Assembly (NCBI GenBank): GCA_030789695.1
Contig: CM061140.1
Location: 80,724,422-80,788,421 of the forward strand
Direction of reading: 5' to 3'
Length of the DNA stretch: 64,000 nt
Origin: Scilla litardierei
Lineage: Eukaryota; Streptophyta; Magnoliopsida; Asparagales; Asparagaceae
Shown: positions 26,560 to 62,685 of the stretch, piece after piece
Layout of the letters: the number at the start of each line of letters is the position of its first letter
Position numbering within the stretch: position 1 is the first letter of the stretch
Program-made: the position numbers and the translations under genes
The notes under the pieces: model-generated
What the model was told of the DNA's origin: nothing
The model's input: only the letters and a program-made list of their open reading frames with translations
Database searches by the model: none

Positions 26560-27315
26560 TCTCAACAGTCGACTGTTGAACGTTTCACAGTCGACTGTCT
26601 AAAAACAGTCGACTGTATTTTGTTCTACAGTCGCAGGTTATGTACTTATCTAATCAGTTGATTTTTGGGCTTCTAAGCTTTAACTCTATCAGGCGACTGC
26701 TGTACGTTTCACAGGCGCCTGTCCAAGCGACAGTCGACTGTGATCTGTAAATCAGTCGCCTGTCTATCATCTGCCCATGATCAGTCCATTTGATCTGGTC
26801 AGTCTGATGTTGTAATTACAGTCGCCTGTCCAAGGACCAGTCGACTGTAAATGCTTCAACAGTCACCTATCCATGATTCTTCTACGGGACTTGCTCTCTG
26901 AAATATTTCTTATTCTAGTGCCAGTCAACTGATGTTGTATTTACAGTTGACTGTCCAATGGCACAGTCGACTGTCAATGCTTCAACAGTCGTCTGTCTGT
27001 GAGCCTCTATGCAGACTCAACTCTCTGGAAAATGTCAGGGTTTGTGACAGTCGCATGTAGAAGGAATTACAGTTGCCTGTTGGATTTACTGTCGAATGTT
27101 TTTTCTTCATCAATCGCATGTCCTGTATTCCCAGACTTTTCTCAGACTTTCTTAACTTACCCAGATTATGGCCAGTCACCTGTAGAAGGATTTACAGTCG
27201 CCTGTGGTTAAACAGTCGACTGTCTACTCGTCATCAGTCGACCATTTGAATTCTCACCTATCCTCTGACACAGTGCAGCGGTCGACTGTGTTTTGTTCAA
27301 CAGTCGACTGTTGCA
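26560..27315. repeat. Palindrome cluster ACAGTCGACTGT (SIRE LTR)
   Basis: More than twenty exact or near copies of ACAGTCGACTGT, including CAGTCGCCTGT and CAGTCAACTG variants, in about 750 bp. Spacing is irregular, often alternating with ordinary AT-rich sequence. Confidence 0.9.
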
Positions 27316-27397
27316 AGTGCAGATTCTATCTGTTGGCTGTTTCTCAATGGATTTCTAAGGGGATTTTGGGGATTTTGTTTGAGGGCTTTATGGAAAC

Positions 27398-27406
27398 TAT
27401 AAAGGC
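27398..27406 (+). promoter_or_regulatory. TATA box of the SIRE LTR
   Basis: CTATAAAGG about 85 bp after the last palindrome. It is followed by a leader-like sequence to 28078. Confidence 0.6.
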
Positions 27407-28079
27407 AGCCTCTATTGTTCCATCGAGAGGTTAGAAAATTACTCATTCATTCAAGCTTTCATTCTTCCAAGATCAAAGCTCTCAAAATCCTAAAGCCCTA
27501 GAATTCATATCTTCAATCTCTTGCTCTCCAACCTAGAACCAAAGAGAAATCTTCTAGGTAGTTGGTGCAGTCAAGGCAAAGGGCTTTCCTCTCTTCTAAG
27601 AGAGTCATTCAACACACAACACAATCTCCTTCAAGTTCTACTTCAAGGCATAGGTGATTGTCAGTGTTGTTTATTTCAAATTTCATAACTTTCGTTATTT
27701 GATTTACTCTCAGGTTTTGAGAGTTGTTTGCTTGCTCCCATGTTGTGAGAGTCAAGGACAATCAAGTGTATTTCGATTTCACTTGTAGGGTTGCTACAAG
27801 TGGATTTTTAGGGAAACCTCAAGTTAGGGTTCTAACTTGAATATCCGGTTGTTACCGGGTGGAAGGGACGTAGGATTACCGGGAACAAGTTGGGAAGCGA
27901 CTTGGATAATCCGAACACTTGAAACATCCTTGTGTTTGCTTTGTTTCATTTTGCGGTTTACTTTTATTCCGTATTATTTGCTTGTTAGGAATTTAATTTG
28001 GTGTAACTTTATTTTTAAATTGCATAAACACTATTCAGCTTCCCTTCTAGTGTTTTCCTAGTAGACAGGGACCTTACAA

Positions 28080-28095
28080 TTGGTATCAGAGCACT
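28080..28095 (+). other. Primer-binding site, tRNA-iMet type (SIRE)
   Basis: TTGGTATCAGAGCACT starts 2 bp after the LTR end and matches the standard Ty1-type plant site. Confidence 0.9.
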
Positions 28096-28115
28096 GGTTT
28101 ATAGCTATAGCATCC

Positions 28116-29012: not shown

Positions 29013-29254
29013 TGACGTGTGTTTATATTTCATATATTTGCGCACGTTTTCTTCCGTGTTTTTCCGTTACTTACCGCCGTCTTGTATTCGTTTTCTCGTG
29101 TTTTCTTGTTTTCTTTCACTTTTTCGTGTTTTTGTATATTTGCAGGAGTTTACCGGCGTAGGGGACATAAAACGACGATATCATGAGTCCCTGGAGCAAC
29201 GGGAGGAGTCACGCGTGATCCAGGGGGTCAAACGATGAAGATCGCATCTTTCAG

Positions 29255-29630
29255 CCCCTCACCCGACCAGTTGGTCACTTCCAACCGATCGGGTGATGCA
29301 CGCGTGCATCACCTGGACACAAGTTGGAGCGGCCAAGAAGTCACCCGGTCGGTTCAGAGACCGGTTCAAATGCCCCAACTCTCTGGAATTTGATGCTGAA
29401 TGCCAACCTATCGGGTGACCTTCACCCGATCGGTTCACCTGTAGCCAATTCTTCGAAGCCAAGACACGGAGAGCTCAACCGACCGGTTCACCCGACGGCG
29501 CGAAGATCCAACCGGTCAGCTTCAACCCTCAACCGACCGTGCCGTATGACCGGGTGAAGTCCCGTGCTGAACTGCTGAAGAAACGAAGCAGGTCACCCGA
29601 TCGGTTGACTTTTCAACCGATCGGGTGATA
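29255..29630. repeat. Palindrome cluster ACCGATCGGT-type (5' LTR, family 2)
   Basis: About fourteen copies of ACCGATCGGT and its variants (CACCCGATCGGTT, AACCGATCGGGTGA, AACCGACCGG), all centred on CGATCG or CGACCG. The matching cluster in the 3' LTR is about 44845-45215. Confidence 0.9.
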
Positions 29631-29638
29631 TCGTATTC

Positions 29639-29651
29639 TATATATATGACC
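29639..29651 (+). promoter_or_regulatory. TATA box of the family 2 LTR
   Basis: CTATATATATGAC, about 10 bp after the last palindrome. The 3' copy (45226-45238) reads CTATATATATAAC. Confidence 0.65.
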
Positions 29652-30605
29652 CCTAAGTTTTCCAGAAACGAGAGTTGTTATTTTTTGCTGTTTTTTCTCT
29701 CTCTTGACGACTGTAATTTTTCAGATATTTGTAAGTTTTCCGATCTTTACCAAACTTTAATATAGTGTTATTAGCATTGCTCTTACTGCTTTTCAATCAC
29801 TTGATCATGTTTCTAACGGTCGATTTCGATTTAGATTGCTTTTTACTAAATATGTGTGAGTAGTTCCCAAATCTGGGATTTTGGTGGAAACCCCTCCGTG
29901 GGTTCTCCCCGATGCATCCATAGGACTAGGAAATCGATAGGGATTAGGAATCTACCGGTTACACGGGGTGTTTTATTGTCATCGGCAGGAAAAAGACCGC
30001 ATTTGACCGTTGGGCCAAGGGGGAATAAATTTGGCGGTTGACTCCCTAGCCATAGCTCACGTCCTTAGCGTAAACGTCGAATCCTAGCACGCGGGAGCGG
30101 TAGGATGAGACGTTGGGAGTTATCGTTGCGAGCTTAGTGCTCCCAGAGTCGGTCAGTGTTAATGGACATGGGAATGCCCACTGACCAAACCTGGGAGTCT
30201 GTCGTATCATCCTGGGCACCGACCGGAATATCGGGCCCATGGGACGCTGGTATCACTTTTAGAGGCAACGTCTCACCATTAGACCCTAATTCCGATCGCT
30301 ATCCTACTCGTAGGCTGTATCGCCGAGAATCGCACGATAGGGTGGAAACCAAAGTCCCGGGTTTTTCCTTTATATTTTTTATCCCTCGCATTCTATTTTC
30401 CATGACAACCCATCATCCGATTCGGGCTAGCTCGCCAATGGGGTGAATCCGATCCTTCTTGACACAAGCACAACCATGCCTCCCTGAGTTCGACCCCCAA
30501 GCCACACTACAACACCGTGCGCTTGCGGTTACAAATATTTAAATCTCACGCCCCCAATTATACATTGCACACAGCTGACGTGCAAAGCCGGGGGACGTCA
30601 AGCTT

Positions 30606-30793: not shown

Positions 30794-31677
30794 ATGCGCA
30801 GGAGTTCAAGAAGTCTCGACGACTTGATTCCCATTGATCCAGAGATAAACGCCACCCTAAGGCGTTTGGCCGCCGAGAAGCGAAGAAGAGAGGATCCTGA
30901 AACCATGGGGGAGAACACCCCGCCTCACAAGTCCCTGCTGGAGTACTCGATGCCATCCATCGAGTCCACCTCCGCCATCCGTCCTCCTGCTATTACGGTG
31001 CAAAGCTTTGAGCTTAAGCCGTCTTTGGTGACGTGGATCCAGCAGGATCAATTTTTGGGTGCACCCATAGAGAGCCCCATTGAACATTTGAACTCCTTCT
31101 TGGAGAAATGTGACACCTTCCGGATAAACGGTGTCACAACTGAGGCGATCCGTCTGAAGCTATTCCCCTTCTCTCTGCGAGATAAGGCCAAGCTGTGGCT
31201 TAGGGAGAAGGACCCGAACACATTCAACACCTGGGAGAAGCTTTCAAATGCTTTCCTGACAAAGTTCTTTCCTCCGGGGAAGACCATGAAGCTGAGGAGT
31301 GAGATCTCCTCCTTCTACCAGGCCAGCCATGAGTCTCTGCACGAAGCCTGGACCAGATACAAGGAGATGCAGCGGAGATGTCCCCACCATGAGCTTCCCA
31401 AGTGGCAGATCATAAATCTGTTCTATAATGGGTTGAGGGACGATTTGAAATCTTCCATGGACACCGCGGCTGGAGGGTCCTTTATGTCAAGAAGTGAAGA
31501 AGATACCGGATAAATTCTAGAAAATATGGCATCAAACAATGAGCGGTGGTGTGACGAGAGAGCCACACCTAGATCTGGAGGTATCCACAGGGTCGAGGAC
31601 GTCGACAAATTATCCAGCAAGTTTGACTTGCTGTGGACCCAGATCTCCGCATTGATGGTAGGAGCCGGTGATGCCGG
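30794..31677 (+). pseudogene. gag: gag of family 2, first part
   Basis: ATG 30794 opens MRRSSRSLDDLIPIDPEI, matching the family start pattern. The gag domain includes SFELKPSLVTWIQQDQF, KLFPFSLRDKAKLWL, FLTKFFPPGKTMKLR and LFYNGLRDDLKSSMD. A TAA at 31511 interrupts it, then the frame goes on with ILENMASNNERW. It is cut by the minus-strand Ty1 element at 31677 and resumes at 39557 after GCCGG. Confidence 0.88.
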
Positions 31678-32285
31678 TGAAGGATCCTGTCCAAAACAGA
31701 GTTAGGATCGATAACATGAAGTTTAGACTTACGCTTGCGTACGCGGCACGGTAGTCTACGAACTTCGCCTTCGGATTCGCCACGACGGATCGAGTCTACT
31801 CACGAACGGAGTAAGGCTACTAATCCCACAATCTAAATCTCTATTTTAGATTAAGAACTTGGATGGAGGGAGAGGAAATATTTCTGCAGAGCTTCGCTAT
31901 GAAGAAGATGCATGCATGAATTTCATGCAAAATGTGTAAGGAAAATGGCTACCCTTGGGTCTTATTTATAGCCCCCAAGGTAGTTATTTTAGGGTAAGTT
32001 GTTCCTTTGGAACAACTTAATTAAGGTGTACCATGATACATGGCACATTATAAGCTTAAGTTGTACCATATGCATGGTACAACATAAGCTTAAGATATTC
32101 CCCCTTTATTAGCCATATGTCGCATGCACTTATGCATATATAATGCGAATTTCCCGCTCATACAGAGATCCTCTCCGCAAGGGAACAGATTCCCTTTGCA
32201 CATGACTTAGTGTGCGCGACGTTCGAGGTCCGTTTTCCCTCGTACATCCCCCACAAGGGTGTACAAACGTCTTCCATATCCAACA
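31678..32285 (-). repeat. LTR of the young Ty1 element (its 3' LTR)
   Basis: 608 bp, plus-strand ends TGAAGGATCC and ATCCAACA. It contains an inverted repeat TTGTACCAT-ATGC-ATGGTACAA near 32063-32084 and a minus-strand TATA-like ATTATATATG (32135-32144). Confidence 0.95.
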
Positions 32286-32300
32286 TCTCCCACTCACACT
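32286..32300 (-). other. Polypurine tract of the young Ty1 element
   Basis: The minus strand reads AGTGTGAGTGGGAGA directly next to the LTR. Confidence 0.75.
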
Positions 32301-33350
32301 TGAGGGGATTGTAAGAGAACGTCTTTCCCTTAGTTCTTTCATCTATCATACCGAGAAATAGACCATGCGACCGTCATGCGCGTAGAGTCTGTTGTTGTGC
32401 ACTTGTTAGAGATACACAACGACCTCGAAGGTGCAAAGTTGAGTAGTTCAACGCATGCTTTACCCTAGATTATTTCTTCACATTTCTTATACTTTATATT
32501 CAACAATTGAATCCCATCTGGATTACAATTGGCTGGCCAGCTTTGAATCATTAAAGTCCAAATGCGAACATGAAATCAATCTTCCTCTTCTTGAGAACCT
32601 TATGATCTTGACTTGATTCGCTTTTCTAACGTGCCCCGCCGAGCCGAATTACCATAGCCCATTAGTAACACGCTAAGATAGCGATCATCTCGTCAAATCT
32701 AAAGGAACCAATTGGAGTCCTTGAGGGTAAGAGTTAAGACCCGTATGGCCTTTGAGTCTCACATAATAGCAAACACTATTGCTACTAACTCAGTGGTCGA
32801 AATGTATACGTGGTATGAACACGTATTACAACATCACTCCTTTCCCAGGGAGAGTATGTCTTAATGATGTTATACGGATGAAAGATCAGACACCACAGTG
32901 CCTATCTTTTGAGTCCCCTTACTACTCAGGAAATATTCCCGGACTCTCATCCTGCATAAGACAGATAGGATTAAAAAATCCAATGAGATCTTTATATCCT
33001 TGTGATACAGATCTCAGATCTTTTGTAAGCATCCATATGATGCAGATCTTTCATTCGACTATCTTGTTAAAGTCTTGACTCTAAATCATTCGTCTAATGA
33101 TTTTGACTTTAAACTAGTCTCATCTCTATCTTATCCATCTGATAAGATAAGGCGGTTGCTCATGTGAGAGAGCCAACCTTAATCTGTCCGACATACACAC
33201 AATTCAGCTGAGATTTCAAAAATGTACACAAACATTTCTTAAGAAATTCATATGCAATGTTGGAAAAAGAACTTATTCTTTTATTAATTTTGATCATTTC
33301 TTAGACATGGGAATATATATTTGGTACAACTCAGCCCATACGCAATCCTT
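32301..33350 (-). other. 3' noncoding region of the young Ty1 element
   Basis: About 1 kb between the end of pol and the polypurine tract. I see no domain on either strand, and the open frames here are short and unsupported. Confidence 0.5.
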
Positions 33351-36020
33351 GAGATGATAAGTGTTTATAAAACACATTTCTGGGGATCGCTTTCGTAAGC
33401 TGATCCTCTATCGTCTCATGCGTAGATATGTACCTTATGTCTACCTTCTTGGTTTTATCATAGTCTTTTGCAAATCTGCAGTTCCTTTAAGATACTGCAT
33501 TATCCTCTTAACCGCTTTCCAGTGTTCTTGCCCTGGGTTGGATTGGTAACAGTTTACCATTTCCAACGGCAAAACAGATGTCCAGTCTCGTACACACCAT
33601 AGTGTACATAAGACTATCAACTGTACTGGAATATGGAACTTTTTCCATAATTTCCTTTTCCTTTTGGTTCTTTGGACGTGATTCCAGATATAAATTATCG
33701 CATATGCTTATATGAATATCAATGGACTTGCAGTCCTGCATATTAAATCGTTCTAGAACCTTCTTTATATAAGTCTCCTGTGAAAGAGAAAGAAGTTTCT
33801 TCGAACGATTCCTTGAAATCTTAACTCCAAGGATATATGCGGCTTTTCCTATGCCTTTCATCTAAAATACTGATGAAAGCCAAGCCTTGATACTCATTAC
33901 AAAGCCCTTGTCATTTCTGGCTATTAAAATGTTATCTACATATAGATACATGATAATATACTTGCTTTTAATCCTCTTGATATATACTCAGTTATCTTCA
34001 TCAAGCATGGAAAAAATCCATTTGATAAGACAACTTCTTGAAATCGTATATACCATTGCCTCGAGGATTATTTAAGACCATATATGGACTTACGAAGTTT
34101 ACAAACCTTATGTTTGTTTCCTTCTTTTACAAACCCTGTTGGTTGTTCCATATAGATCTCCTCGTCCAATTCTCCATTGAGAAAGGCAGTCTTTACATCC
34201 ATCTGATGTAATTCGAGGTATAAGCAAGCTACCATTGCGAATCAAGGTAAAACGCACAACAGGTGAGAAGTTTTCTTTGTAGTCTATCCCTTCCTGTTGC
34301 GTAAAACCTTTCGCGACAAGGCGAGCTTTATATCTATCTATAGAGCCATCAGCCTTATGCTTGATCTCGAGAACCCATTTGTTCCCAATTGCTCTATGTC
34401 CTCTGGGTGAGTTAACTAAGTCCCAGACTTGGTTAACTTTTATGGATTTCAATTCCTTCTTCATCGCTTCCATCCATTTGTCTTTTGCAGGGCATGATGT
34501 GGCATATTTGAGATTCTTCAAGTCCTTGTTGACTCGAATTTAGATCAATTCTAATATCACTCCCACTTGAAATGTTGTTAGAATTGCTCCCACTTGGATC
34601 ATTATTCCCGTATGGAATAGGATAATCGTCATTCGTATAATCCATTGGTGAAGGTTGAAAAGTATTTTCGTTTTCACCAAGAATTCTCCCACTCGAATGA
34701 GGTAATCCTTCTTGATCACAAATCTCAAATAGAGATAAGTCCTGACTTATCTCGCCCTGTCTTGGAAACTCGTTTTCCAAGAAAGTGACATCCCTCGACT
34801 CAAACTCAATTAGCACACCATTGTCTTCCTGACTAACAAAAACATAACCTTTGGAGTTTAATGCGTATCGTTTAAAGATACATTTCCTTCCCCATGGCCC
34901 AAGTTTGCCATACTTATGGGAGGAAATATGTGCGTTGAATGCACAAACTCAAGGTAAAATGTTTAAGTTAGGAGACCTTTGGTTCCACAACTCATAAGGA
35001 GTGGAGCTAACTGATTTCGAGGGTACGCGGTTTAAAATGAAAACGGTTGTCAATAATGCATCACCCCAGAAGGTGATTGGCAAGTTAGCTTGCGCCATCA
35101 TTGAACAGACCATTTTTCATTAAAGTCCTATACCTCCTTTCTGCAACACCAATTTGTTGAGGAGTATAAGGCATAGTTACTTGATGTACTATGCCTTTTT
35201 CATCACAAAGTTCCTTTAAACTTGTTGATTGATATTCACCGCCCCTATCGGTTCGCATGACCTTAATCTTGCGATCTAATTGATTCTCCACTAAACTCAT
35301 ATAGTTTTTAAAGCAGGTTTAGTGCTTTCACTTTTGTGGGATATCAAATAGATATTACCGAATCGGGTGAAATCATCAATTAAAAGTGATGAAATAGGAC
35401 TTCCCGCGTCTTGTCTTGACATTCATCGGACCATATATGTCCGAATGGATAAGCGGTAATGGAACCTTGGCCCTTGTGCCGGTTCCAAACGGCTTGCGAC
35501 AAGATTTCCTTTCAAGGCAATGTTCGCAGGTCGACATTTCAACCTTTGAAACATTGGATAGAAGGCCACGTTTGGCAAGTCTATCCATACGCGTTGGTCC
35601 AATATGACCAAGCCTTGATTGCCAACAAATTATATTAGACTCATTAGTCAAAGAATTTGTCATAAGGAAATGAGAAATCATATATTGTACTTATTACAAT
35701 GAATCCTTTAAATACATAACCCAGAACCAATAAAGGAATTATTACAAAAATAGGTCCATATTACAAACATGAAGGAACCAACTATCACAAAGACCCATTA
35801 AATTGACCACAGTTTTAATATTCCTTTGAATATATGGAATGAAGAGAACATCATGTAGTAGGAGAGTGAGGCCGTTGTCCAAGACAAGCTTGCGAGTCCC
35901 AACGCCTTTCACTTCAACACGTGTGTTGTTTCCTACATTGATCCACTTCATTCCTTGGGTATCCGGTGATACTCCACGAAGGACCGTCTGTCCTTTGCTA
36001 TGTGGTCGGTGGCACCTGAA
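33351..36020 (-). pseudogene. pol: pol of the young Ty1 element (broken)
   Basis: Reading toward lower coordinates: protease WIIDSGATDH (about 36025-36000), VGNNTRVEVKGVGT, the pre-integrase zinc region (SRLGHIGPTRM, CEHCLERK; the first His is Gln), integrase with LIHSDIYGPM, MRTDRGGEYQS and PYTPQQIGVAERRYRTLM. RT follows with WKL-type VNQVWDLVNSP, DRYKARLVAKGFTQQEGIDY and MDVKTAFLNGELDEE-like wording after a frameshift. The active site is YVDN (33931-33942), and then AAYILGVKISRN. RNase H begins (YQSNPGQEHWKAVKRIMQYL) but jumps to the distal end ISTHETIEDQLTKAIPRN, losing the catalytic core. Several stops and shifts lie between. Confidence 0.85.
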
Positions 36021-36947
36021 TCAATTATCCAAAAATGGATTAGATTCCACAAGAAATAGTGGACTAGAAACACATATGTAACTAGTATTACAAGTTACCT
36101 CGTCACTTCCACTCGTACACGAACGAGCATAGTGACCGAGCTTGTTGCACTTGAAGCACTTGATCCTTTTCAAGTCTTTCTTCTTGTGCCATTTCTTGTG
36201 CCCACCCTTATGTTTGGGTTCCTTGGTAGACTCAGGTTGCTTATTACGTTCATTAGAAGACTTCGAACGATCTTTACGTTTCTTTCCCCCATGTGAGGAA
36301 CTAGCAACCACGTGCACTTCTGCACTTGGCTTGGCAGCCGCAAGCCGCTCTTCCTCTAATTCGAGGTGCTTGGAAACGTCGTTGAAGGTCTTGATGCTCT
36401 CATTGTGAGTGAGATGCATCTTCATTTGATCCCACCCATTTGGTAGGGAACGTATGACTGCTTGGATTTGTTGCTCATCAGTGAGCACATGACCTGCGTC
36501 CTTTAACTCCGAGATAAGGTTCGCCATATGTCGCAGATGTTTCCCCATGGAATGATCTGGACGTTTCTTATATGTATCGAACTTTATAGTTAAGGCGCGA
36601 AGTTTGGACACCGATGTGCCACCGAACTTCTCCTCTAGCTTGGACCATATGTCCATGGCTAGGTCATGTTCTCGGAAGATGCGCATTATGTCATCAGCCA
36701 TACTGCTTAATAACGTAATGCGCGCTATCTTATTCTTCCGAGACCAAGCATCAAAAGCTTCCTTGTCTCTTCGGTGTTGGGCCGTAGTGCCCAACTCGGG
36801 TTCAATCATTACGTTCTTTAGAGTTTCGAGCACTTCTTGCTCCTCTAAAACGTATTGTATCTTAATGGACCAAAGTTTGTAATTATCGCCGTTGAGTTTT
36901 TCACCTTTGTTTAACTCAGCGACGATATTCTTTGAAGCGGAAGACAT
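36021..36947 (-). CDS. gag: gag of the young Ty1 element
   Basis: The start chosen is MSSASKNIVAEL (ATG at 36947); an upstream in-frame ATG exists at 37007. The protein is about 308 residues. It has the Ty1 capsid region (LNGDNYKLWSIKIQYVLEEQ; LEEKFGGTSVSKLRALTIKF; RSLPNGWDQMKMHL), a Lys-rich stretch and one CCHC knuckle, CFKCNKLGHYARSC. There is no interruption, in contrast to the broken pol. Gag forms the particle and binds RNA. The frame ends just as the protease begins in another frame. Confidence 0.88.
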   Translation of the reverse strand: MSSASKNIVAELNKGEKLNGDNYKLWSIKIQYVLEEQEVLETLKNVMIEPELGTTAQHRRDKEAFDAWSRKNKIARITLLSSMADDIMRIFREHDLAMDIWSKLEEKFGGTSVSKLRALTIKFDTYKKRPDHSMGKHLRHMANLISELKDAGHVLTDEQQIQAVIRSLPNGWDQMKMHLTHNESIKTFNDVSKHLELEEERLAAAKPSAEVHVVASSSHGGKKRKDRSKSSNERNKQPESTKEPKHKGGHKKWHKKKDLKRIKCFKCNKLGHYARSCTSGSDEVTCNTSYICVSSPLFLVESNPFLDN

Positions 36948-38928
36948 TTTACTTTTAAAATGCTGCAAAAGACACAAAACCGAAGGTTCGATCAAAAAAC
37001 ATTGCATAAAAAATTCTTAAAATATAACTCCCACTTGAAATGATAATAGAATATCCCATTTGGATAGTTCTAAAATTCAAATCCCACTTGGAATTATATT
37101 ATATTTGATAAGTTACTTTCGAAAAATATTGAAGGTGTTGTTCTAGAATCGAAAAGGTCTCTATGATTCCAATCACCATCTAGAACAACTTTCAATATTC
37201 CCCCATCACTTATCAAACAATAGTACTCTTATAGTACTAGCAGCGGAAAATAAGTATTTGATAAGTTACTTTCGAAAAATATTGAAGATGTTACTCTAGA
37301 ATCGGAAAGGTCACTATGTTTCCAATCACCATCTAGAGTAACTTTCAATATTTCTCCCTCACTTTATCAAATGTTAGTACTCTTATAGTACTTAGCAGCG
37401 GAAAAGCGTTTTTGAAAACGTATTTTTCAAAACGAATATAAAATACATTGGCTAATCTCCGTAGAGTAGAGCACAACGTCATAAGTTCATTGGCTAATCT
37501 CCGTAGAGTAGAGCACAATGACATGGCTAATCTCGCATGAAGTAGAGCATTACGGCTAATCTTCAAGGAGTAGAGCACAATTTCATAAGTACATTGGCTA
37601 ATCTCCGAAGAGTAGAGCACAATGACTTGGCTAATCTCGCATGAAGTAGAGCATTATGGCTAATCTTCAAGGAGTAGAGCCCAATGAAAACTTCATTAAA
37701 ACGTTAGTCCCGTATGAACTATTCGGCACTGTAGTTAGCCCCGTATGGACTAATCTACACATTCGAGTTTGACCAAGGCCATTTGTTACCCCGTATGGGT
37801 CATCTGGCAAGTTTACAATCGACCCAGACCATTTGTCGGATTGGTCGACCAAAAACACAAAATTGGTCGACCAATTTTCGAATTCAACTTCTTCCCGGTC
37901 AGGGCCTCTGCCCTGACCCGGGCTTGGCCAAAGGCCGGCCAGGGCCTCTGCCCTGGCCGGCCAGGGGGCCTGGCCCCCTCGGCCAGGGCCGGCCAGGCCC
38001 TGGCCTCTGCCAGGGCCGGCCGGCCAGGCCCTGGCCACTGCCAGGGCCTGCCGGCCAGGCCACTGGCCGGGGCCAGGGCTCCTGCCCTGGCCTCGGCCAG
38101 GCCCTGGCCTGAGGCCAGGGCGCCGGCCCTGGCCTCTGCCAGGGCCGGCAGGCCGCTGGCCGGGGCCAGGGCTCCTGCCCTGGCCTCGGCCAGGCCCTGG
38201 CCTGAGGCCAGGGCGCCGGCCCTGGCCACTGCCAGGGCCGGCCTGGCCCTGGCAGTGGCCAGGGCGCCGGCCCTGGCCTCTGCCAGGGCCGGCAGGCCGG
38301 CCAGGGCCGGCAGGCCCTTGGCCAAGGCCGGCCACTGCCGGCCCGGCCTTGGCCGGCCACTGCCGGCCTGGCCATGGCCGGTCATGGCTTGGCCATGGCC
38401 GGCCATGGTCAAGGCCTTTCGGCGTTGGCCGGCCATGGCCCCTTTGGCCATGGCCGGCCACCCCCTTTGAATGGGGTTGCCGCACTTTCTTCTCCCCCTT
38501 GATGGGGTGGTCGCCGGTGGTTATTGGCCGTAGCCAACCCCCTCCGCATGAGGAGAGGGGGTGCATGGCCTTCATGGCCCATTTGGCCATGGTGCACATG
38601 CACCAAATTTTCCTCTTACCCGATGGAAATAACTTCCATCATCTTCCTCGATGAAGCACCCGTTCGTCGAAGAAATTAGTTATCTCTTAATGGCCGTGTG
38701 CCAAAAATGAATAACGTACTACGTGAACGGTCGGTTCTTCCCGTCACGGAGAGTTCCTACCATATCCATAATGATAGGAGACCCTAACGTGAAAAGAACA
38801 ACCGCTGCGTTCTCTCCGTCACGAAGCGTTCCTACTATATCCGTAATAGTAGGAGACCCATTCGTGAAAAAGACAACGACTCGTTCGTAGTTTCGACGGG
38901 GCGGTGGATTGACCGGGGCGAACCCATA
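36948..38928 (-). other. Long repeat-rich leader of the young Ty1 element
   Basis: Two kilobases between primer site and gag, built of repeats. Two copies of a 153-bp unit (from 37107 and 37260) each contain an inverted pair around TTGAAAGTTGTTCTAGA-like sequence. Several short GGCTAATCTCC/GTAGAGTAGAGCACAA units lie at about 37445-37685. A GC-rich GGCCAGGGCC array lies at about 37905-38470. A further direct repeat of CGTTCCTACTATATCC-type sequence lies at about 38750-38880. The open frames in the GC-rich array are by-products. Confidence 0.7.
37905..38470. repeat. GC-rich GGCCAGGGCC array
   Basis: About 560 bp of GGCC-rich sequence made of CCAGGGCC, GGCCCTGG and GGCCGGCC words on both strands. 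It includes a roughly 93-bp longer unit (from 38063 and 38156). It could form stable stems and has very high CpG and GGCC density. Confidence 0.85.
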
Positions 38929-38943
38929 TGGCTCTGATACCAA
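38929..38943 (-). other. Primer-binding site, tRNA-iMet type (young Ty1 element)
   Basis: Minus strand TTGGTATCAGAGCCA directly next to the 5' LTR. Confidence 0.92.
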
Positions 38944-39551
38944 TGAAGGATCCTGTCCAAAACAGAGTTAGGATCGATAACATGAAGTTTAGACTTACGC
39001 TTGCGTACGCGGCACGGTAGTCTACGAACTTCGCCTTCGGATTCGCCACGACGGATCGAGTCTACTCACGAACGGAGTAAGGCTACTAATCCCACAATCT
39101 AAATCTCTATTTTAGATTAAGAACTTGGATGGAGGGAGAGGAAATATTTCTGCAGAGCTTCGCTATGAAGAAGATGCATGCATGAATTTCATGCAAAATG
39201 TGTAAGGAAAATGGCTACCCTTGGGTCTTATTTATAGCCCCCAAGGTAGTTATTTTAGGGTAAGTTGTTCCTTTGGAACAACTTAATTAAGGTGTACCAT
39301 GATACATGGCACATTATAAGCTTAAGTTGTACCATATGCATGGTACAACATAAGCTTAAGATATTCCCCCTTTATTAGCCATATGTCGCATGCACTTATG
39401 CATATATAATGCGACTTTCCCGCTCATACAGAGATCCTCTCCGCAAGGGAACAGATTCCCTTTGCACATGACTTAGTGTGCGCGACGTTCGAGGTCCGTT
39501 TTCCCTCGTACATCCCCCACAAGGGTGTACAAACGTCTTCCATATCCAACA
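38944..39551 (-). repeat. LTR of the young Ty1 element (its 5' LTR)
   Basis: 608 bp, nearly identical to 31678-32285. Confidence 0.95.
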
Positions 39552-41597: not shown

Positions 41598-41945
41598 CAA
41601 CCGATCGGTTGATAACTCAACCGATCAGTTGGGATGTATCAGCTGATGGCCGTATCAGTCACTCAATGAACCGATCGGGTGAAGACATGAGAGAGCGGTT
41701 GGCAGACCGGGTGAACTGGGGCTAAAGTCTCGGGAAATTTTCAGATTTTGTCAACCGATCGGGTGATGAGAAGCATGACCGGTTGATTGACCTGGTGAAC
41801 AACACCAAACTCTCGGGAAAATTTGTGGAGCGGCCAACTGATCGGGTGAGTTATCAACCGACCGGTTCGCCTGTAGCGTCTCTTCAGCTGAAAATCTCGA
41901 CCAATAAGTCAACCGATCGGGTGACAACTCACCCGATCGGTTGAA
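41598..41945. repeat. Palindrome cluster ACCGATCGGT-type upstream of ORF2 (family 2)
   Basis: About a dozen copies (AACCGATCGGTT, ACCGATCGGGTGA, ACCGACCGGTT and variants) in about 350 bp, using the same word as the family-2 LTR but set in different sequence. Confidence 0.88.
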
Positions 41946-41960: not shown

Positions 41961-42360
41961 TTAACCCCCGCTCTGCCCGTTCGTTCCCCCCTCACCCGAT
42001 TTCGAATTTCCGATCGCCGTTTCGACTCCTCCGCCTTCTTCCGACCTAGTTCTTCCTCTCAACCGACCCTAATCGATCTCTCCCCTCTCCTTTTCCATCT
42101 CTCCATCGATTTCTCCCCCTTCCTCTTCGACTTCTCCCGCACACAAAGCCCTAGTTTTCGCCCATCCCCCCCCATTTTCGAAAATTGCTGAAAGGATTCA
42201 CCGTGGCTTCACACGTGTTCGTGTTGCGTTGCATTGGGGCGTCTATGAGCAACGATCTTCATCTCAATTGGGTAACTTCGCTCCTTAGCTCAATTTTTAT
42301 TTTGCCCAAGAATTTCATTTTGCTCGATTGTCGTGTTAGTGTGTTTTCATCGTATTTTGC

Positions 42361-42363
<3 letters not shown>

Positions 42364-52932: not shown

Positions 52933-53149
52933 TTCTTAGATTTCGGATTTTTTTTTTCAAATTCCCATTTTTATTTCATATTTTAGAGATAAAATTATAA
53001 AATCACAAAAATTTTATGAGTTCGTGTTTTGTACAGATTGGACATGTGGAGGCATACAAATCGACATTATAAACGGAAGGAAGTTGGAGGAGAGCACCAA
53101 ACTTGAGGAGAAAACAAAGGAAAAAGGAGAAAATGGAGACATATGTGAC

Positions 53150-53495
53150 TCGACTGAGCAGTTTCACTGCTCGGTCGAGCAGAGCAGAGACAAGAAAAGA
53201 GAGGAATTCATCACTCTGGTTGCACGGCCCGAGCATCCTTGGCTCGGTACAAGCAGCAAAAGACTCGGTCCGAGCAACCAATTACTCGGTCGAATACTAC
53301 AGGCTTTTGGATATAATGAGAAAACATCACTCTGCCTACACGACCCGAGTGGAGTTGGCACGGCCCGAGTAATGAACAGTTCGACCGAGCAGTACACTTC
53401 TCGGTCGAGCACGCGAGGGAGTATATGACAAATCAATTTATTGAATTTTTTTAGCTGATTGACTCGGTCGAGCAACTGAGCTGCTCGGACCGAGT
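53150..53495. repeat. Palindrome cluster GCTCGGTCGAGC-type upstream of ORF2 (family 3)
   Basis: About fifteen copies (TGCTCGGTCGAGCA, CTCGGTCCGAGC, CTCGGACCGAG and variants). It is preceded by a purine-rich stretch (53080-53140), as in family 1. A further group lies at 53925-54010. Confidence 0.87.
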
Positions 53496-54222
53496 CGTAT
53501 TATCCTTTCCGTGGGCCCCACCCCAAGCGAGTTGGGTTTTTAAACCCAACCCGTTTTTAATTTACCCTAATCTAAAAATTTTACCCTAACATTTACTTTT
53601 ACCCTCCCCGAGCTCTCTCCCTCTCTCCTTACTCGTTCACCCCCGCCGTCCTTCACTGCCGCTCCGTCGCTTGCACCGTCGGATCGTCGCCCATCTTCGG
53701 TCAGTCGCCGCCCCTCCGTTCTCTCTCTCTATCTCTCAACCCATCTCCCCCAGCCCCCATTTCTAATCGACGACACCGTCAACGGTGCCACCGCCGCCGA
53801 CTGTGCCGCCCATCCGATCAACGAAAAAACCCCCACTCTCCCACCCAAAACCCCCGCCTACCCCACCCCCTCCCTCATCCGATCGCCCAAAATCCCCCTT
53901 CTCTGATCTCCCGTGCCCTAGGGCACGGACCGAGCACATTTGTGCTCGGTCAGGACTTCCCACCGAGCAGAAAGACTCGGACCGAGCAGTCGTACTACTC
54001 GGTCGAGCACCCCAAGTTTTGCATGTACCCCATTTTTATTGCCTCGTTCTGACGTTTTGATCTTTTCTATTTTCAGGTACTCCCTGATTAAGTCAGCAGC
54101 TGCAGTCAGGACTAGCTTGGGGGATCTTTTGGCACTCGCATCGTTCGCATCACTCGCACATACGGTACACTCGTTCCCTTATTTATTTTTATATACCGTA
54201 TCATCATACCACCATCGCCACG
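53496..54222 (+). other. ORF2 leader of family 3 with extra palindromes
   Basis: An AT-rich stretch (GGGTTTTTAAACCC near 53535) is followed by a pyrimidine-rich leader. A second small group of the family palindrome lies at 53925-54010. TTTTCTATTTTCAG at about 54063-54076 looks like a splice acceptor, and AGCTTGGGGGA lies at 54114-54124. Confidence 0.6.
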
Positions 54223-56471
54223 ATGGTTCGCACAAGAGGTTCCCCCACCCCACCCATCTGTGGGAAGAGGCCCACTCCAGGCGCCTCTTCCTCCAGACCC
54301 TCGCGTCATGCAAGACTCACCACCACCTCCACCACTACCTCCACCACTACCACCCCTCTACTACAGCTCCCACCACTACCACACCTATCCCCACCACCTC
54401 AGCCCCTTTCCCCACCACATCACCATCCACTGCCTCTACATCATCACCCCCACACCTCGCCCCCACCAGGGATGCCTTGCCTGCTCGTCTCCGTACCTAT
54501 GGTATCACGTTCCGAGACGACACGCACCGAGAGTGCTTTGTTAGGATCTCTCAGCGTCGTCTCGTACTTACTTTGTTCATAGACGTGCCTACCCGGTGCT
54601 CCCTTGGACTCCTTCAGGGAGTCCATCACATCTACCGAGCGATCGGTTTCGACCGATTCCTCGGTGTCCATGCACCCACCTACACCCACATTGCACTCGA
54701 GGCACTCAGCTCTCTCGCTCGCACCCCAGCGGGTGATGGCATCACTTTTCGTCTCATGGACCACGACTGCACCATTACACATGCCATGATCTGTGAGTAC
54801 TTTCATTTCCCTGCCATCCCCGATCCCAGAGCAGCCTTCTCTCCACACTATGATGTGGACACATTTGATTCTCGAGCCTGTTGGGAGCGCATTTCAGGTC
54901 TTCCTCAGTATCGCCCTAGTCGGGGGAAGGCATCGTGCATCGTGCACTCATGCCTTTGTTACGCTCAGAGGCATTTAGCGACCACTCTATTCTGCAGGCC
55001 TGAGGTCGGGACCATGTCCCTACCAGAGCTCACCCACCTCATGGGCATGAACCGACTTCTGAGATTCCACCCTGATGGCTCACTCAACCCTTTCATGCTC
55101 TCTGACACAGCCCACTAGTTGTGTCATCGCCTACTCCACACTGCCACAACTGACTATGCCACTGACGTCTGTTACGGTGGCTTCTTTACTATTTTTTCCA
55201 GGATGCTTGATATTCACATCCCAGATGACCTTCACCGCCATGTTGGCCTGACACGCTTGACCCTCGGCGTGCTTGAGCACATGCATATTATCCGACCTTA
55301 TGGGTCTCGTTACTGGCTTTATCTCGTAAGCACTCACCACACTCCACATATGGTTTTTTTGGCCCCGCACCTCATCCATATTGCTCCAGTTCATCTTGAC
55401 TGGATGATCCCTCAAGTCTACCCACTACCTACCCTACACGTACTCGAGCCCCCCAGAGAACCCGTCGAGGGAGCTGCCGATGACCCAGTGCCACGCTCCC
55501 CGGAGTTCGAGTTACATGACATTGCTGCCTTAGTTGCTGGCCTCCCTGTACCACTTACTCACCCATCATCCTCCGGAGCCGTCTCTTCCACCATCATTGT
55601 AGTTATCGCTCCCATGACAGTCGAGTCTTCGGGGAATGTCTCTACCTCTTGCCCCGAGACTCAGATTTTTCTCTCCACCATTTCCGTGCCGGAGGGCACT
55701 GATTTCCTGTCTGCTCCTGACCTCATAGATCTAGACTTTTCAGAGCACGACCTTGTTCCCACTCTTCCTCCTCTCAGCGACCTGATAGCTACACTTACTC
55801 TCTCTCTAGGTCACCATATTCCACTTTCCGGCACCACTCTCCCATCATCCGCAGCCATTTTTACTGAGAGCATGTCGACGTCTGTCTATCCTTCTGTGTC
55901 GACGACGGCTCTTTCTTCTGCCACCGCTGAGTTACATTCGAGCTCACCCTCTCCTACCTTCCACTCTCGGCATCGTGCCTCAGCAGCACGGGACCGATTC
56001 ACGAGAGTGGTGACTCACAGACACATCCCCCGTCCTCCACCCGACTCCAGTACTACAGATGGTCCCCTGACGGTGTTAGAGGAGTCGACTTCTCTCCTTC
56101 GGAGAGATTTCGATGACTTTATACGATCCATGGCGACACACCACATGAGAGTCGAGTCAGACTTGGCATCCATCATAGATCTCCTGAGGACACGTGGACC
56201 CCCTCCAGTAATCCTTGCACATGCTCCACCACCCAGGCCTGACACTGTGACCCCCACTTCACCACTCAGTGCTTCACTTTCTCAGGCTTCTGCAGAGCCT
56301 GTTTCTGCCACTTCTGAGTTGGACATTATATTAGATCCCATGTCTGCCCTGGTGTTATATTCAGCTGAGCTCTCCACTGCCACTATTGATCTTACCACCG
56401 ACCCACCCACCGCTCATGGTCCTCAGCAGAGGGACCCATCACCACCCCCAGAGGGTGGTGCCTATGCTTGA
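54223..56471 (+). pseudogene. ORF2 of family 3, Transposase_32-type (near-intact)
   Basis: The likely ATG at 54223 (MVRTRGSPTPPICGKRP) is in another frame from the core. A shift in the Ser/Thr/Pro-rich stretch (about 54310-54440) separates them. The core, from about 54489, reads YGITFRDDTHRECFVRISQRR, FRLMDHDCTITHAMICEYF, RGKASCIVHSCLCYAQRHL and PEVGTMSLPELTHLMGM. A single TAG at 55116-55118 interrupts the frame, which continues to TGA 56471. A Ser/Thr/Pro-rich middle, a helical stretch (LLRRDFDDFIRSMATHHMRV) and the end PPPEGGAYA follow. It is the same protein type as family 1. The function is unknown. I see no membrane segment or signal peptide. Confidence 0.8.
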
Positions 56472-58209: not shown

Positions 58210-59938
58210 TGATGTGTCCATATTTTTCACTATTTTCGTATCATCCCTTCATTTGATTCCATATCATTTTCGCATCCAAATCTCACATTTTACTACAATA
58301 TCGCGTTTCTGGTGTTATATTCGAGTTTCGTAGTGTTATATGAGTTTCCAGGGATTTTGGAGCGATTTGGGACCCCACTTGGGTATGGACACATCCAACA
58401 TACCCGTGAGCTCATTGGTGGAGCCCTGTAGGAGTTTGCCACACTTTTGGAGCCATTGGAGGAGAAGAGAGAGAGCAGAGGAGCGAGAGGAGCCTTCAGC
58501 AGCTCCTGGAGAATGTTTTCCAGACTGCTCGGTCGAGCAGTTCAGATGCTCGGACCGAGCAGCTTCAATTGTAAGAAAGGGGCAGATACGCGGATGGCTT
58601 GGACCGAGCAGTTCGTCTGCTCGGTCGAGCAGTGTCAATTTTCAAAGCTGAAGCAATTAAAGCACACGGCCCATGCAGATATTCAGTGACCGAGTCAGCC
58701 TCTGCTCGGGCCGAGCTGAGCTGACTCGGCCCATGCTGGCAGAGCAAGGATTTTAGAGATTTCAATTCTCTATCAGGCTCGGTCGAGCAGCACAACTGCT
58801 CGATCCGAGCAGCTGAACAAGCAACGCACTGCTCGACCGAGCAGCCTACTCGGTCGGCAGTGCCAGTGCCATTTTAGGAAAGATTTGTTGAAGCCATTGC
58901 GGGCGCGATCTTGGGGACTGAAAGCTGGAGCTCGCGAGAGGGAAGAGGGGGGTCATTCTGAAGAGTTTTGGGGAAGAGTTTCTGAGAGCAAAAATTTTAG
59001 TAGATTTTTGTTAGACTTTAGATTAATTTTTGTTATAGAATTTTGGATCGAGACTTTTGGATTGATATTTTGGTTTTCGATTACTATTGCGTATTGGAAT
59101 CTGGATTTTTATTGGATCTAATTCTCGTCTATTTTCTGCATCTCTCGCTGTAAGTTTCTGATCTATATTCTATAAATTGCTACGATATTCTCTTCTACAA
59201 AAATGATGTTTTTATTCGCCACTATCGCCATGTGTGAGTAAATCTTCCTAGGGTTGATGGGTTAGCCCTAAGATTCTAGAAGAAAGAACTGGATCTGAAT
59301 CTCCATGTTGAATTAAAGATTTAGGGATGTATTTCGATCGATCCTAACGAATCCCTAGATAACCCGTACTGAGATTATGCCCACGGTCTGTAGAATTGAT
59401 GTGGTTAAGGGGTATCTTTGGGATTCGAATATGGAAATCGGTGGATCCAACCAATGCTTGTGACCATGCCCGGCTTATGCCTTGAGAGGATCCATCGACG
59501 AACTATACCGTTACGTTGACGGCTACCGCCATTGCGTCAACGAGGGCTACCAAAATAACTCGTAATTCTAACCCATGAGAGTGATACGAATTGTGAGATT
59601 TATCCCCTAACCCTAATGCAACGTGAGGACTTTATTCTAATGTCGACCCCCGACGATCTTAGCTGTAATCCCTGATGCCCTAGTCCTTTTTATTAGTAAA
59701 ACAACAACAACACCCCAATCAACTCTTCCAACCCAATAGCTTCTTACTTCGAGATTTAGAAGTAAACTGAGAATCCATATACACTATCACCATCGCTGTG
59801 GGATTCTATATCATTTATACTATAACTTCACACCGTCCTCTTGCAGATTGAGCCTGGAATTGAAGCCTAGGGGCCATGCCATACCTGGCGATCGTGACAC
59901 CACCAGGTGGAATCTAGGTATAGGTTTCGGGTGCATCA
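58210..59938 (+). repeat. 3' LTR of family 3
   Basis: 1729 bp, TGATGTGTCC to GGGTGCATCA, palindromes at 58525-58860. It keeps the 49 bp lost from the 5' LTR. Confidence 0.95.
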
Positions 59939-59943
59939 CACCA

Positions 59944-60600
59944 CCACAAAATGGTGCTGTAGAGAGAAAGAATAAGACTCTTATTGAGTGTGCTCGTACC
60001 ATGCTCAATGATAGTCATCTTGGACTACAATTTTGGACAGAGGCGGTGCACACGGTATTTTATGTGCTCAATAGGATCCTAGTGAGACTCCGAACGAACA
60101 AAACTTGCTTTGAGCTATCAAGTTAAATATTTTCGAGTTTTTGGTTCAAAATGTTTTATCAAGAACACCTTTGGTAACTTAGATAAATTTGAGCCAAGAT
60201 CCGATGAAGGAATTTTTGTTGGATAGTCCACACGTAGCAAAGCCTACCAGATATACAACAAAACCTCTTCAACGATCGAGGAATCACTTCACGTATCATT
60301 TTATGAATATTTTTATTTTCCTTATGTTATTGATGATAGTGTAGATGCTATATGTGATTCTCTTAGTAATGTCAAGATTAATGATTCTATTATTGAGACT
60401 AACACTACTAATAAGATTGTTGAAGATGTTCCAAGTGATGCAGGGATTTCCAAAGCTTACCCAACCGTTCGCAACCACCCTCATGACCAAATTATTGGAG
60501 ATATTGGTGTGGGTGTTCGAACGAGGTCTAGAATTGAAGAATTCTTTCATTGCGCATTCGTCTAGAGCCAAAGAACATCCAAGAAGCATATGAGGATAGC
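59944..60600 (+). pseudogene. pol: SIRE-type integrase part 2 and linker
   Basis: The integrase resumes with PQNGAVERKNKTLIECARTM (catalytic Glu in VERKN), then FWTEAVHTVFYVLNR. A gap and frame changes near 60120 precede FRVFGSKCFI-like, DEGIFVGYS-like and TRSRIEEFF wording. Several frames are needed to follow it. Confidence 0.82.
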
Positions 60601-62095
60601 TCTTGGATAGTGGCAATGGAAGAAGAGCTCATGCAATTTGAGAGAAATGAAGTTTGGGAGCTCGTTCCTCTTCCAAGTGGTCACCAAGTGATTGGGACCA
60701 AGTAGATCTTCAAGAACAAAATCGATGAGAACGAGGTCATCTCAAGGAACAAAGCAAGGTTAGTAGCTCAAGGTTACGGGCAAGAAGAAGGTATCGACTT
60801 CGAAGAATCTTTTGCCCCCGTAGCAAGATTAGAAGCTATTAGATTGCTTTTATATTTTGCATCTTATAAGAATTTAAAATTGTTTCAAATAGATGTTAAA
60901 AGTACATTTTTAAATGGTATTGTTAATGAAGAAGTTTATGTTTCTCAACCACCCGGTTTCATACATGAAAAATTTCCAAACCATGTTTTCAAACTTAAGA
61001 AAGCGTTATATGGGTTGAGACAAGCTCCCAGAGCTTGGTATGATCGACTCAAAACCTTTCTTTTGGATTTAGGTTTTAAAATGGTGAAGTTGATTCAACA
61101 CTTTTTATTAAGGATTATGAAAATGACATCCTATTGATTCAAGTTTATGTAGACGATATTATATTTGGTTCTACTAACTTTAATCTTTGCCAAGAATTTT
61201 CTAAGTCTATGAAGGATGAATTCGAGATGAGACATATAGGTGAGCTCAACTATTTTCTTGGATTGCAAATATGGCAAATGAAGGATGGGACTTTTATACA
61301 TAAAACCAAGTACACATGGGAGCTTATCAAGCGATTCGGGATGGAATCGTCTTCAAGCAAAAGGACTCCCATGAGTACGACAACCCATCTACACAAGGAT
61401 GAGAACGGAAAAGATGTAGACGTTCGTATATATCGAGGTATGATCGGTAGCTTACTCTATTTGACTGCTAGTAGACCCGATATCATATTTTCTGTATGCC
61501 TGTGTGCTAGATATCAAGCTAGACCTAAGGAGTCACACTTGCTTGCGGTTAAACGAATTTTTCATTACCTCAATCATTCACTAGATTATGGGTTACTTTA
61601 CCCTAAATCTAGCATATATGAGTTAATCTCATATAGTGATGCTGACTTTGTCGGATGCAAATCCAATAGGAAGAGTACTAGTGGCACTTGACATTTTCTA
61701 GGAAATTCCCTAGTTTCTTGGTTCTCCAAGAAACAAAACTCGGTATCATTGTCCACGACTGAAGAAGAATATATTACCGTGGGTCTTGCATGTGCACAAG
61801 TTCTTTGGATGAGACACACTCTTAAGGACTATGATGTCAGTCGTGATACTTGCCCTATCATGGTTGATAACCAAAGGCTAGATGTCTTTCCAAAAATCTG
61901 GTACATCACTCCCGTACCAAACACATAGATGTGAGACACCATTTTATCAATGATCATGTAGCTAAAAAGGACATCATCTTAGAGTACATTGAAATCCAAA
62001 AACAAATCGCTGATATCTTCACTAAACATCTTAATGAAGATTCATTTGTGAGGTTGCGTGGAGAATTAGGGATTATGGGTGAATCTGAAATTTAG
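60601..62095 (+). pseudogene. pol: SIRE-type reverse transcriptase and RNase H
   Basis: RT has [55 protein letters not shown] and [20 protein letters not shown] frameshift near 61085 leads to the intact active site VYVDDIIFGS (about 61143-61172). RNase H has ISYSDADFVGCKSNRKSTSG, where the next Cys is a TGA (about 61689), then WFSKKQNSVSLSTTEEEY. Another shift near 61880 precedes RTKHIDVRHHFINDHV and ADIFTKHLNED, with the stop at 62095. Confidence 0.87.
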
Positions 62096-62377
62096 GAGTT
62101 CAACCTTCTTGTTATATCATATTTGGACTCATATCATCATGGCACTTCTCTTCTTTTGATAAATTATATGTTTCATATATATATATATTTGTTTAAGAGA
62201 TGTTATTGAGATTTTGATGATTTTGTTAGCTTTTGGATTGGTTTAAGAGTTTTGTGTGTTAATCAATTATATTTTGATATTGATTTCGTAATTAGATTTA
62301 TGTTAGAGTATAGGTCCTAGGGTGAGTTGTCTATATCCTCAGGTTTTTAACCTCACTTTGCATTTCTGGACCAGGAC
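62096..62377 (+). other. Spacer after pol (SIRE)
   Basis: AT-rich, no gene seen. Confidence 0.6.
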
Positions 62378-62610
62378 AGCCGACTGTCATTCCTTCGACA
62401 GTAGACTATCCATATCTTCAGTGGTATCTGTTTATATCGTCATATTTTTGATTCTCAGGCAGTCGACTGATGAGTAAAATACAGTCGACTGTCTCTCCGA
62501 CAGGCGACTGTTATTTACCCAACAGTCAACTCTCTGTCAACTCATGCCTATCTTTATCCAACTTTCCAGTCGACTGACAAATGTTCTCCAGTCGAATGTC
62601 AACTGTTGTG
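62378..62610. repeat. Palindrome cluster ACAGTCGACTGT upstream of the extra ORF (SIRE)
   Basis: About nine exact or near copies (ACAGTCGACTGT, CAGTCGACTGA, CAGGCGACTGT and variants) of the same word as in the SIRE LTR at 26560-27315. Confidence 0.87.
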
Positions 62611-62675
62611 GCGGTTCGTTAACTTGATCTAAGCCGTCGATTTTTCGATCCAACGGCCCAGATTCTTTTGACCCT

Positions 62676-62685
62676 CTTTATATCG
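62676..62685 (+). promoter_or_regulatory. Internal TATA-like box upstream of the extra ORF (SIRE)
   Basis: CTTTATATCG, about 70 bp after the last palindrome. It is followed by a pyrimidine-rich leader with a possible acceptor, TTCACTGATTAG (about 62860-62871). Confidence 0.5.

Follow-up and report, generated by a model that had tools for sequence, protein, structure and literature searches.

In the present study, we examined a window of 64,000 nucleotides of the Scilla litardierei genome (contig CM061140.1, positions 80,724,422 to 80,788,421; the window is this whole stretch), in which four long terminal repeat (LTR) retrotransposons each carry a palindromic word that is clustered in the LTR and clustered again ahead of the second open reading frame (ORF2). 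The layout, which an earlier sequence-only reading had described, is borne out by a count by region in all four of the elements with an ORF2 and is common to Ty1 and Ty3 elements, with the same word at both places within each element. We consider it probable that these are arrays of protein-binding sites at two promoters per element, whichever protein binds them; promoter activity, dimer binding and co-regulation are predictions made from sequence statistics. What is new here is the helical phasing of the sites (21.0 and 10.5 bp) together with, in three of eight clusters, a 13-bp step to the TATA box.

According to the mechanism that we propose, each array would consist of promoter-proximal sites for a dimeric, sequence-specific DNA-binding protein, and each element would have two promoters, that of the LTR (for gag-pol) and an internal one just before ORF2. 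With one word at both promoters, a single factor could control genomic RNA and ORF2 in concert, and steps of about 21 bp (two helical turns) would align the dimers along the same side of the helix, where they may act cooperatively next to the TATA box. Such phased arrays provide DNA for binding assays and predict a function that depends on helical phase; furthermore, they link two superfamilies by one regulatory layout.

Location of the arrays

The window holds a nest of LTR elements, recognized by comparison of the window with itself (self-BLAST) and by reading of the open frames:

229-3048 and 23506-26320: LTRs of an outer Ty3 element (self-BLAST)
5253-7090 (5', + strand) and 15319-17161 (3'): LTRs of family 1 (F1), within the reverse transcriptase (RT) of the outer Ty3 element (self-BLAST pair, 97.3%)
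about 26463 to beyond 64000: SIRE-type Ty1 element (self-BLAST, reading of open frames)
29013-30601 (5', + strand) and 44601-46189 (3'): LTRs of family 2 (F2), inserted in the SIRE gag (self-BLAST)
31669-39551: nested Ty1 element inside F2, labelled Ty1 from its gag, by eye
48563-50242 (5', + strand) and 58210-59938 (3'): LTRs of family 3 (F3), inserted in the SIRE integrase (self-BLAST pair, 89.3%)

The sequence-only reading had placed all four families between 26560 and 62685, a range that covers SIRE, F2 and F3; family 1 lies outside it, at 5253-17161. The arrays are located as follows:

5556-5943, + strand: F1 LTR array, 9 sites with at most 2 mismatches
10305-10639, + strand: F1 pre-ORF2 array, 10 sites with at most 2 mismatches
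26565-27311, + strand: SIRE LTR array, 22 sites with at most 2 mismatches
62377-62598, + strand: SIRE pre-ORF2 array, 8 sites at spacings of 22, 61, 22, 19, 22, 44 and 22 bp
29284-29625, + strand: F2 LTR array
41600-41941, + strand: F2 pre-ORF2 array, 8 sites
53149-53494, + strand: F3 pre-ORF2 array, 12 CTCG-N2/3-CGAG sites, phased at 10.5 bp
53924-54007, + strand: second small F3 group, 3 sites, after the main array and about 220-300 bp before the ORF2 ATG

When 10-bp cores with at most one mismatch were counted by region (positions 1-228 left out), each word was found in the LTRs and the pre-ORF2 stretch of its own family, and elsewhere the count gave two stray matches of the F2 word only, one in the gag-protease region of F2 and one in the ORF2 and 3' region of F3. 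All four words gave 0 matches in the outer Ty3 element (14,183 bp) and in the nested Ty1 element (7,883 bp). The four elements with an ORF2 have arrays at both the LTR and the pre-ORF2 position (4/4), and the other two, which were not searched for ORF2, lack these words; taken alone, this association of array and ORF2 across six elements is weak. Additionally, positions 41835-41943 of the F2 pre-ORF2 array form an imperfect inverted repeat (73.7%, self-BLAST).

Sequence of the words and their excess over chance

The F1 word ACTCGGCCGAGT is present exactly at 12 sites (5556-5933, 10304-10629, 15622-15999, plus one at 7), the SIRE word ACAGTCGACTGT at 8 sites, the F3 word GCTCGGTCGAGC at 4 sites with 2 further reverse forms, and the F2 word ACCGATCGGT once (41600), most of its copies being one-mismatch forms. 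As extended dyads, they read CACTCGGCCGAGTG in F1, TCA(A/C)CCGATCGG(G/T)TGA in F2, TGCTCG..CGAGCA in F3 and ACAGTCGACTGT in SIRE; the F2 dyad is longer than had first been noted, and what had been described as one F3 word comes in two forms, CTCG-N2-CGAG and CTCG-N3-CGAG. The centre is CG-NN-CG in F1, in F2 and in F3 sites of the N2 form. A CGG-CCG core is present in F1 and in F3 sites of the N3 form, and is absent from F2 (CCG-AT-CGG), from the N2 sites of F3 and from SIRE (CAGTCGACTG). The four words had been regarded as private to their families, which holds for F2 and SIRE. The words of F1 and F3 have a common half-site, CTCGG/CCGAG, and cross-match at one mismatch (the F3 word 14 times in the F1 LTR and 8 times in its pre-ORF2 stretch, the F1 word 6 and 4 times in those of F3), and they are therefore variants rather than independent words.

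An unbiased scan of all 1024 palindromic 10-mers (at most one mismatch, 500-bp windows) gave top counts per 500 bp of 12 for CAGTCGACTG (SIRE), 10 for CTCGGCCGAG (F1) and 7 for ACCGATCGGT (F2); in three dinucleotide shuffles, with 37.0-38.6 kb removed, spacers of 0-4 allowed and arms of A and T alone excluded, the maximum was 3. GGCC-rich words at 37.0-38.6 kb exceeded all others in the 10-mer scan (up to 16). They belong to the nested Ty1 element, where GGCC-rich imperfect repeats occupy 37700-38460 and either strand has long open frames, and they are the strongest palindrome signal of the window, but different in kind.

For F3, the motif was widened to both the N2 and the N3 form, a decision made after inspection of the sequence; at most one mismatch allowed, it then gives 15 sites before ORF2, 7 and 9 in the LTRs, 2 in gag-protease and 3 in ORF2 and the 3' part.

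Spacing of the sites and distance to the TATA box

The spacing tests used sites with at most two mismatches in eight clusters, each family contributing an array from one LTR and the array before ORF2. Of 68 steps between neighbouring sites, 37 measure 18-23 bp; random placement would give 9.6, and the highest number in 5000 runs was 20. Six of the eight clusters are significant individually (p from <0.001 to 0.049). Over the eight clusters, the Rayleigh power peaks at 21.0 bp (35.1) and 10.5 bp (34.5), values attained in 0 of 400 placements, the null maxima being 20.2 and 20.7, respectively. SIRE dominates the summed power. With SIRE taken out, the Ty3 families give 17.5 vs 5.6 at 10.5 bp (0/2000). 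The F3 pre-ORF2 array, both forms included, reaches 10.6 of a possible 12 at this period (0/2000), and the F3 LTRs reach 4.8 (3' LTR, 17/2000) and 3.8 (5' LTR, 61/2000), their spacing counts being weaker (84/2000 and 316/2000). In SIRE, the sites form quartets with steps of 22-(18..20)-22 bp, three of them complete in the LTR (at most two mismatches) and one before ORF2; two further LTR quartets appear if a last site with 3 mismatches is accepted.

The TATA boxes and TATA-like sequences that bear on the arrays are these:

10653-10659, + strand: F1 internal TATA box, 13-bp gap
29639, + strand: F2 LTR TATA, 13-bp gap
41955, + strand: F2 pre-ORF2 TATA, 13-bp gap
27398-27403, + strand: SIRE LTR TATA box CTATAAAGG, 87 bp past the last core
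62677-62682, + strand: SIRE pre-ORF2 TATA-like TTTATA, 78 bp past the last core

Exactly 13 bp separate the last 10-bp core from a TATAWA in three of the eight clusters, namely F1 pre-ORF2, F2 LTR (both copies) and F2 pre-ORF2. For a random position, the probability of a gap of at most 14 is 0.0124, which for three of eight clusters yields p=1e-4, with a limit of 14 that was chosen after the gaps had been seen. Clustering of the words in the LTR upstream of a TATA box is clear in SIRE and F2; the F1 LTR offers a loose match only. Together, the phasing and the short fixed TATA step in three clusters make up an organization that resembles protein binding. There is good evidence, from the sequence, for a predicted internal promoter before ORF2 in F1 and F2, and the arrangement in SIRE is suggestive of one. 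Ahead of the F1 ORF2, a possible leader intron (GT...AG) was noticed by eye at 10873-11034.

Observations that weigh against protein binding

Several observations pull the other way. The nearest TATAWA is 312-717 bp away in the three F3 clusters and 1317 bp away in the F1 LTR, and none follows the SIRE pre-ORF2 array within the window, TTTATA being all that is found there. Loose T/A matches alone are present 85 bp beyond the F1 LTR array and 64 bp beyond the F3 pre-ORF2 array (42 bp from the widened motif), and the F3 LTRs are without even a loose TATA-like match within 150 bp. The spacing in the F2 LTR (p=0.10) and the F3 LTR3 cluster (p=0.36) is not significant on its own, nor is the 21.0-bp period in the Ty3 families (340/2000). 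By the palindrome scan alone, spacers of 0-4 allowed, F3 reaches 4 and is not set apart from unrelated dyads with the same count, TCATT-AATGA near 20.3-20.8 kb (4) and TCCAA-N4-TTGGA near 16.3 kb (4), a low score that results from the mixture of its two forms.

Part of the layout is possibly owed to duplication. Once the words and 4 bp on either side are masked, the flanks of the LTR array and of the pre-ORF2 array are still similar in F1 and F3 (0/200 shuffles) and slightly so in F2 (5/200). Carried to its end, this would make the arrays functionless remnants of an LTR segment duplicated in tandem, which we hold to be very improbable: the SIRE spacers of the LTR and pre-ORF2 arrays, under the same masking, show no similarity beyond that of shuffles (89/200), and word and spacing are kept while the spacers differ.

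Also unfavourable to protein binding is the strong folding of the arrays as RNA, with z from -5.2 to -8.2 and 0/200 shuffles in each of the four stretches tested (4/4). The palindromes might thus act through RNA or small RNA, as transcript hairpins or as targets, decoys or products of silencing, and maize Sirevirus LTR palindromes have been described as hotspots of small-RNA mapping (PMC5311732); a weak nested symmetry in the spacers of six SIRE quartets (29/5000) points in the same direction, although two F3 quartets have none (1621/5000). We nevertheless judge this route improbable, for any array of repeated palindromes folds strongly, and a 10.5-bp period with a short fixed TATA step reflects properties of double-stranded DNA that hairpins do not predict.

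The ORF2 proteins

The second open reading frames, and their state of preservation, are as follows:

11217-12344, + strand: F1 ORF2 core, PF03078 (ATHILA ORF-1), E=2.2e-9, 37.1 bits; frame broken downstream
42419-42820, + strand: short F2 ORF2 of 134 codons, without match to PF03078
54223-56468, + strand: F3 ORF2 region, ATG at 54223; the PF03078 core lies in a different frame, up to 55115, then a stop, with 55119-56468 open
62942-64000, + strand: env-like ORF2 of SIRE, interrupted by two in-frame stops and truncated where the window ends
63485-64000, + strand: PF20167-like piece of the SIRE ORF2, E=1.6e-6

The PF03078 cut-off of 20.2 bits is exceeded by F1 (37.1) and F3 (40.2), and the F2 and SIRE pieces have no match to this family. 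ORF2 had been called Transposase_32-type; the SIRE piece does resemble PF20167 (Transposase_32), at 28.5 bits, which is below the cut-off of 45 in a piece that the window truncates, and F2 matches neither PF03078 nor PF20167. In F2, one open frame (42155-42820) joins an ORF2-like start, recognized by eye, to an ORF2 end like that of F3 (81% DNA match), and the F2 ORF2 looks like an in-frame deletion derivative.

Between F1 and F3, ORF2 is 42% identical over 233 codons, with identities of 0.55, 0.63 and 0.37 at the three codon positions, resembling those of gag and protease. As the changes fall mostly at third positions, selection has maintained the protein during some or all of the period after the two families diverged. 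Comparison of the SIRE ORF2 with that of F1/F3 by hhalign gave a probability of 1.7% and an E of 0.03.

The search for protein relatives returned one match for the F1 ORF2 and nine, including that one, for a profile (A2; the 7994 candidates sharing the most words with it were scored), all from Lactuca saligna; it found none for the SIRE ORF2 piece. An alignment (A3) of 11 proteins, two pieces from the window and nine from Lactuca, matched PF03078 in 11/11 at E<=10, PF20167 in two (weak, best 0.0033) and PF14626 in one. No relatives were obtained from viral contigs, whether the query was the F1 ORF2, alignment A3, or the ORF2 or RT piece of SIRE.

The N-termini are rich in lysine and arginine, which make up 8 (F1), 7 (F2), 7 (F3) and 12 (SIRE) of the first 40 residues. 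A 3' accessory frame of sunflower Athila elements, aORF(+), has partial similarity to PF20167, a nuclear localization signal and a predicted nuclear location, and PF20167 is there stated to be related to PF03078 (PMC11728184). It is the same kind of protein as ORF2 here, and the basic N-termini together with the prediction for this relative speak for a nuclear protein; the accessible text of PMC11728184 contains no tie to DNA motifs. Sirevirus ENV (envelope-like) proteins have been published with transmembrane and coiled-coil domains, and the role of plant retrotransposon env-like genes is called controversial and unproven in the literature, as far as the accessible texts go. Among 18 pieces (nine from the window and nine from Lactuca), five had a 19-residue window with a hydropathy above 1.6, including the F1 ORF2 (1.79), and none exceeded 1.80. 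A value of 1.6 over 19 residues is the usual threshold for membrane helices, and the envelope reading is equivocal by hydropathy.

Candidates for the binding protein

The binder might be the element's own ORF2 product, conceivably a nuclear dimeric regulator in a loop like that of foamy virus Tas, operating in both superfamilies. We regard this as a tentative idea and rather doubtful, and with like reserve we suggest that in such a loop each family would activate itself and not its neighbours, possibly countering silencing as well. In its favour are the layout common to two superfamilies, the single word per element at both promoters and the retention of ORF2 as a coding sequence. Against it stand F2, with its arrays and a core-less ORF2, and the published cases of words without ENV and of ENV without words; furthermore, no DNA-binding fold was seen, the AlphaFold models being unusable (predicted local distance difference test scores of 39.1 and 38.6) and no fold search having been made. 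If ORF2 were the binder, the 'envelope' puzzle would turn into a self-recognition switch.

The same arrays may have another binder. Host transcription factors could bind the words, the families having captured different factors, with ORF2 as a passenger behind the second promoter; this variant of protein-binding arrays is quite possible, and we find it somewhat likelier than binding by ORF2. It is favoured by the F2 arrays, present despite an ORF2 without PF03078 match, and by the half-site common to F1 and F3. A host LBD-type factor may be one candidate, for which a literature search gave nothing usable. What a host factor explains less readily is that four coexisting elements have three types of word, each repeated at its own LTR and pre-ORF2 stretch. 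In the case of a host factor, the arrays would tell which plant signals may wake these elements.

A third option, proposed in the sequence-only reading by analogy with VANC proteins, is that ORF2 binds the family words and strips methylation, and here, too, family-specific clustered sites lie in non-coding DNA. Between LTR copies, CpG transition differences are rarer in the words than outside (7/53 vs 72/283, one-sided p=0.035), and lower in each of F1 (1/20 vs 18/98), F2 (3/20 vs 21/102) and F3 (3/13 vs 33/83). This contrast is weak; it fits lower germline methylation at the words, other causes are possible, and the rate in word-less elements is 29/154 (outer Ty3) and 1/28 (nested Ty1). DUF1985 and DUF287, the domains of VANC proteins, had no match in the 11 proteins of alignment A3 (E<=10) nor in the F2 and SIRE pieces (E<=0.1). 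The VANC21 motifs (YAGTATTAY), moreover, share a single orientation and have multiplied through tandem repeats (PMC5735166). The two systems are alike in that short motifs, specific to the family, cluster outside the coding parts of the element, and they differ in motif orientation, in protein domains and in element type, a DNA transposon there and LTR elements here. The comparison is therefore a loose analogy, the layout of Tas being closer, and anti-silencing of this kind appears improbable, slightly more so than action through RNA. Overall, the interpretation given in the sequence-only reading is partly supported.

Comparison with known systems

The closest published counterpart is found in Sireviruses (Bousios 2010, PMC2829016), 13 of which are described with RM boxes, palindromic and mostly element-specific CpG words in the LTR before the TATA box. 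In nine of nine with ENV, extra boxes occupy the linker, 77 of these 79 being upstream of ENV, and an internal ENV promoter is argued for. In view of this published layout, the SIRE arrays are a new case of a known Sirevirus arrangement, and the SIRE word of the window closely resembles that of Tnd-1, ACAATCGATTGT. The CGG-CCG core is not general in our elements, Tnd-1 being an exception in the published set too. The differences are that Bousios 2010 covers Ty1/copia only, and we have three Ty3 families in addition (two with a PF03078 ORF2, one core-less), and that the accessible part of that paper, in which a term search was made for helical phasing, shows neither site phasing nor a fixed step to the TATA box. 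In the open-licence literature, we found no Ty3 elements described with such arrays. The same paper bears on the binder: four of the 13 word-bearing Sireviruses are without ENV, none of these with linker copies, and the words of Osr10, Osr8, Vitis and Inga are nearly identical although the plants are distant, both of which favour a host factor; in addition, six ENV-bearing Sireviruses lack boxes. The sequence-only reading had named many families with ORF2 and without clusters as a reason to abandon a family-specific regulator, and cases of this sort, in both directions, are partly in print.

Among Ty3 elements, Athila6A has a promoter for its ENV frame (PMC4977677, Genome Biology 2016), and the accessory gene of Grande is described as having its own promoter and coding for a nuclear protein. 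The likeness is an internal promoter for a 3' accessory gene; word arrays, on the other hand, are not seen reported in the accessible texts. In foamy virus, Tas binds both the LTR and an internal promoter (PMC4929722), so that there are two promoters, the internal one before the 3' accessory genes, and one factor for both, as would be the case here if ORF2 were the factor. At the level of the word, the same sites are indeed present at the LTR and at the predicted internal promoter of our elements. The likeness is one of layout alone; no sequence relation is claimed, and binding by ORF2 is hypothetical.

Structure of the nested elements

In the SIRE element, a putative Sirevirus that owes its label to the sequence-only reading, an rve piece (48242-48562) precedes an RVT_2 piece (61080-61688), which is the Ty1/copia order. 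F1-F3 do not qualify as Ty1 elements, and all carry Retrotrans_gag (PF03732); the designation Athila-type is based on PF03078 and gag, not on a tree of RT. Gag and protease are present in F1-F3 as read from the frames, the interiors not having been scanned as a whole with hidden Markov models. From the last protease-like frame to the first word there are 378 bp (F1), 201 bp (F2) and 548 bp (F3), and therefore no room for RT and integrase there.

Downstream of the integrase of the outer Ty3 element, three tandem copies of a repeat of about 112 bp occupy 20536-20886. A fragment adjoining SIRE (26321-26462) resembles the starts of the F1 LTRs on the minus strand (84-86%, self-BLAST), and positions 1-228, with one F1 word at 7, are probably the other part of this fragment, separated from it by the outer Ty3 element.

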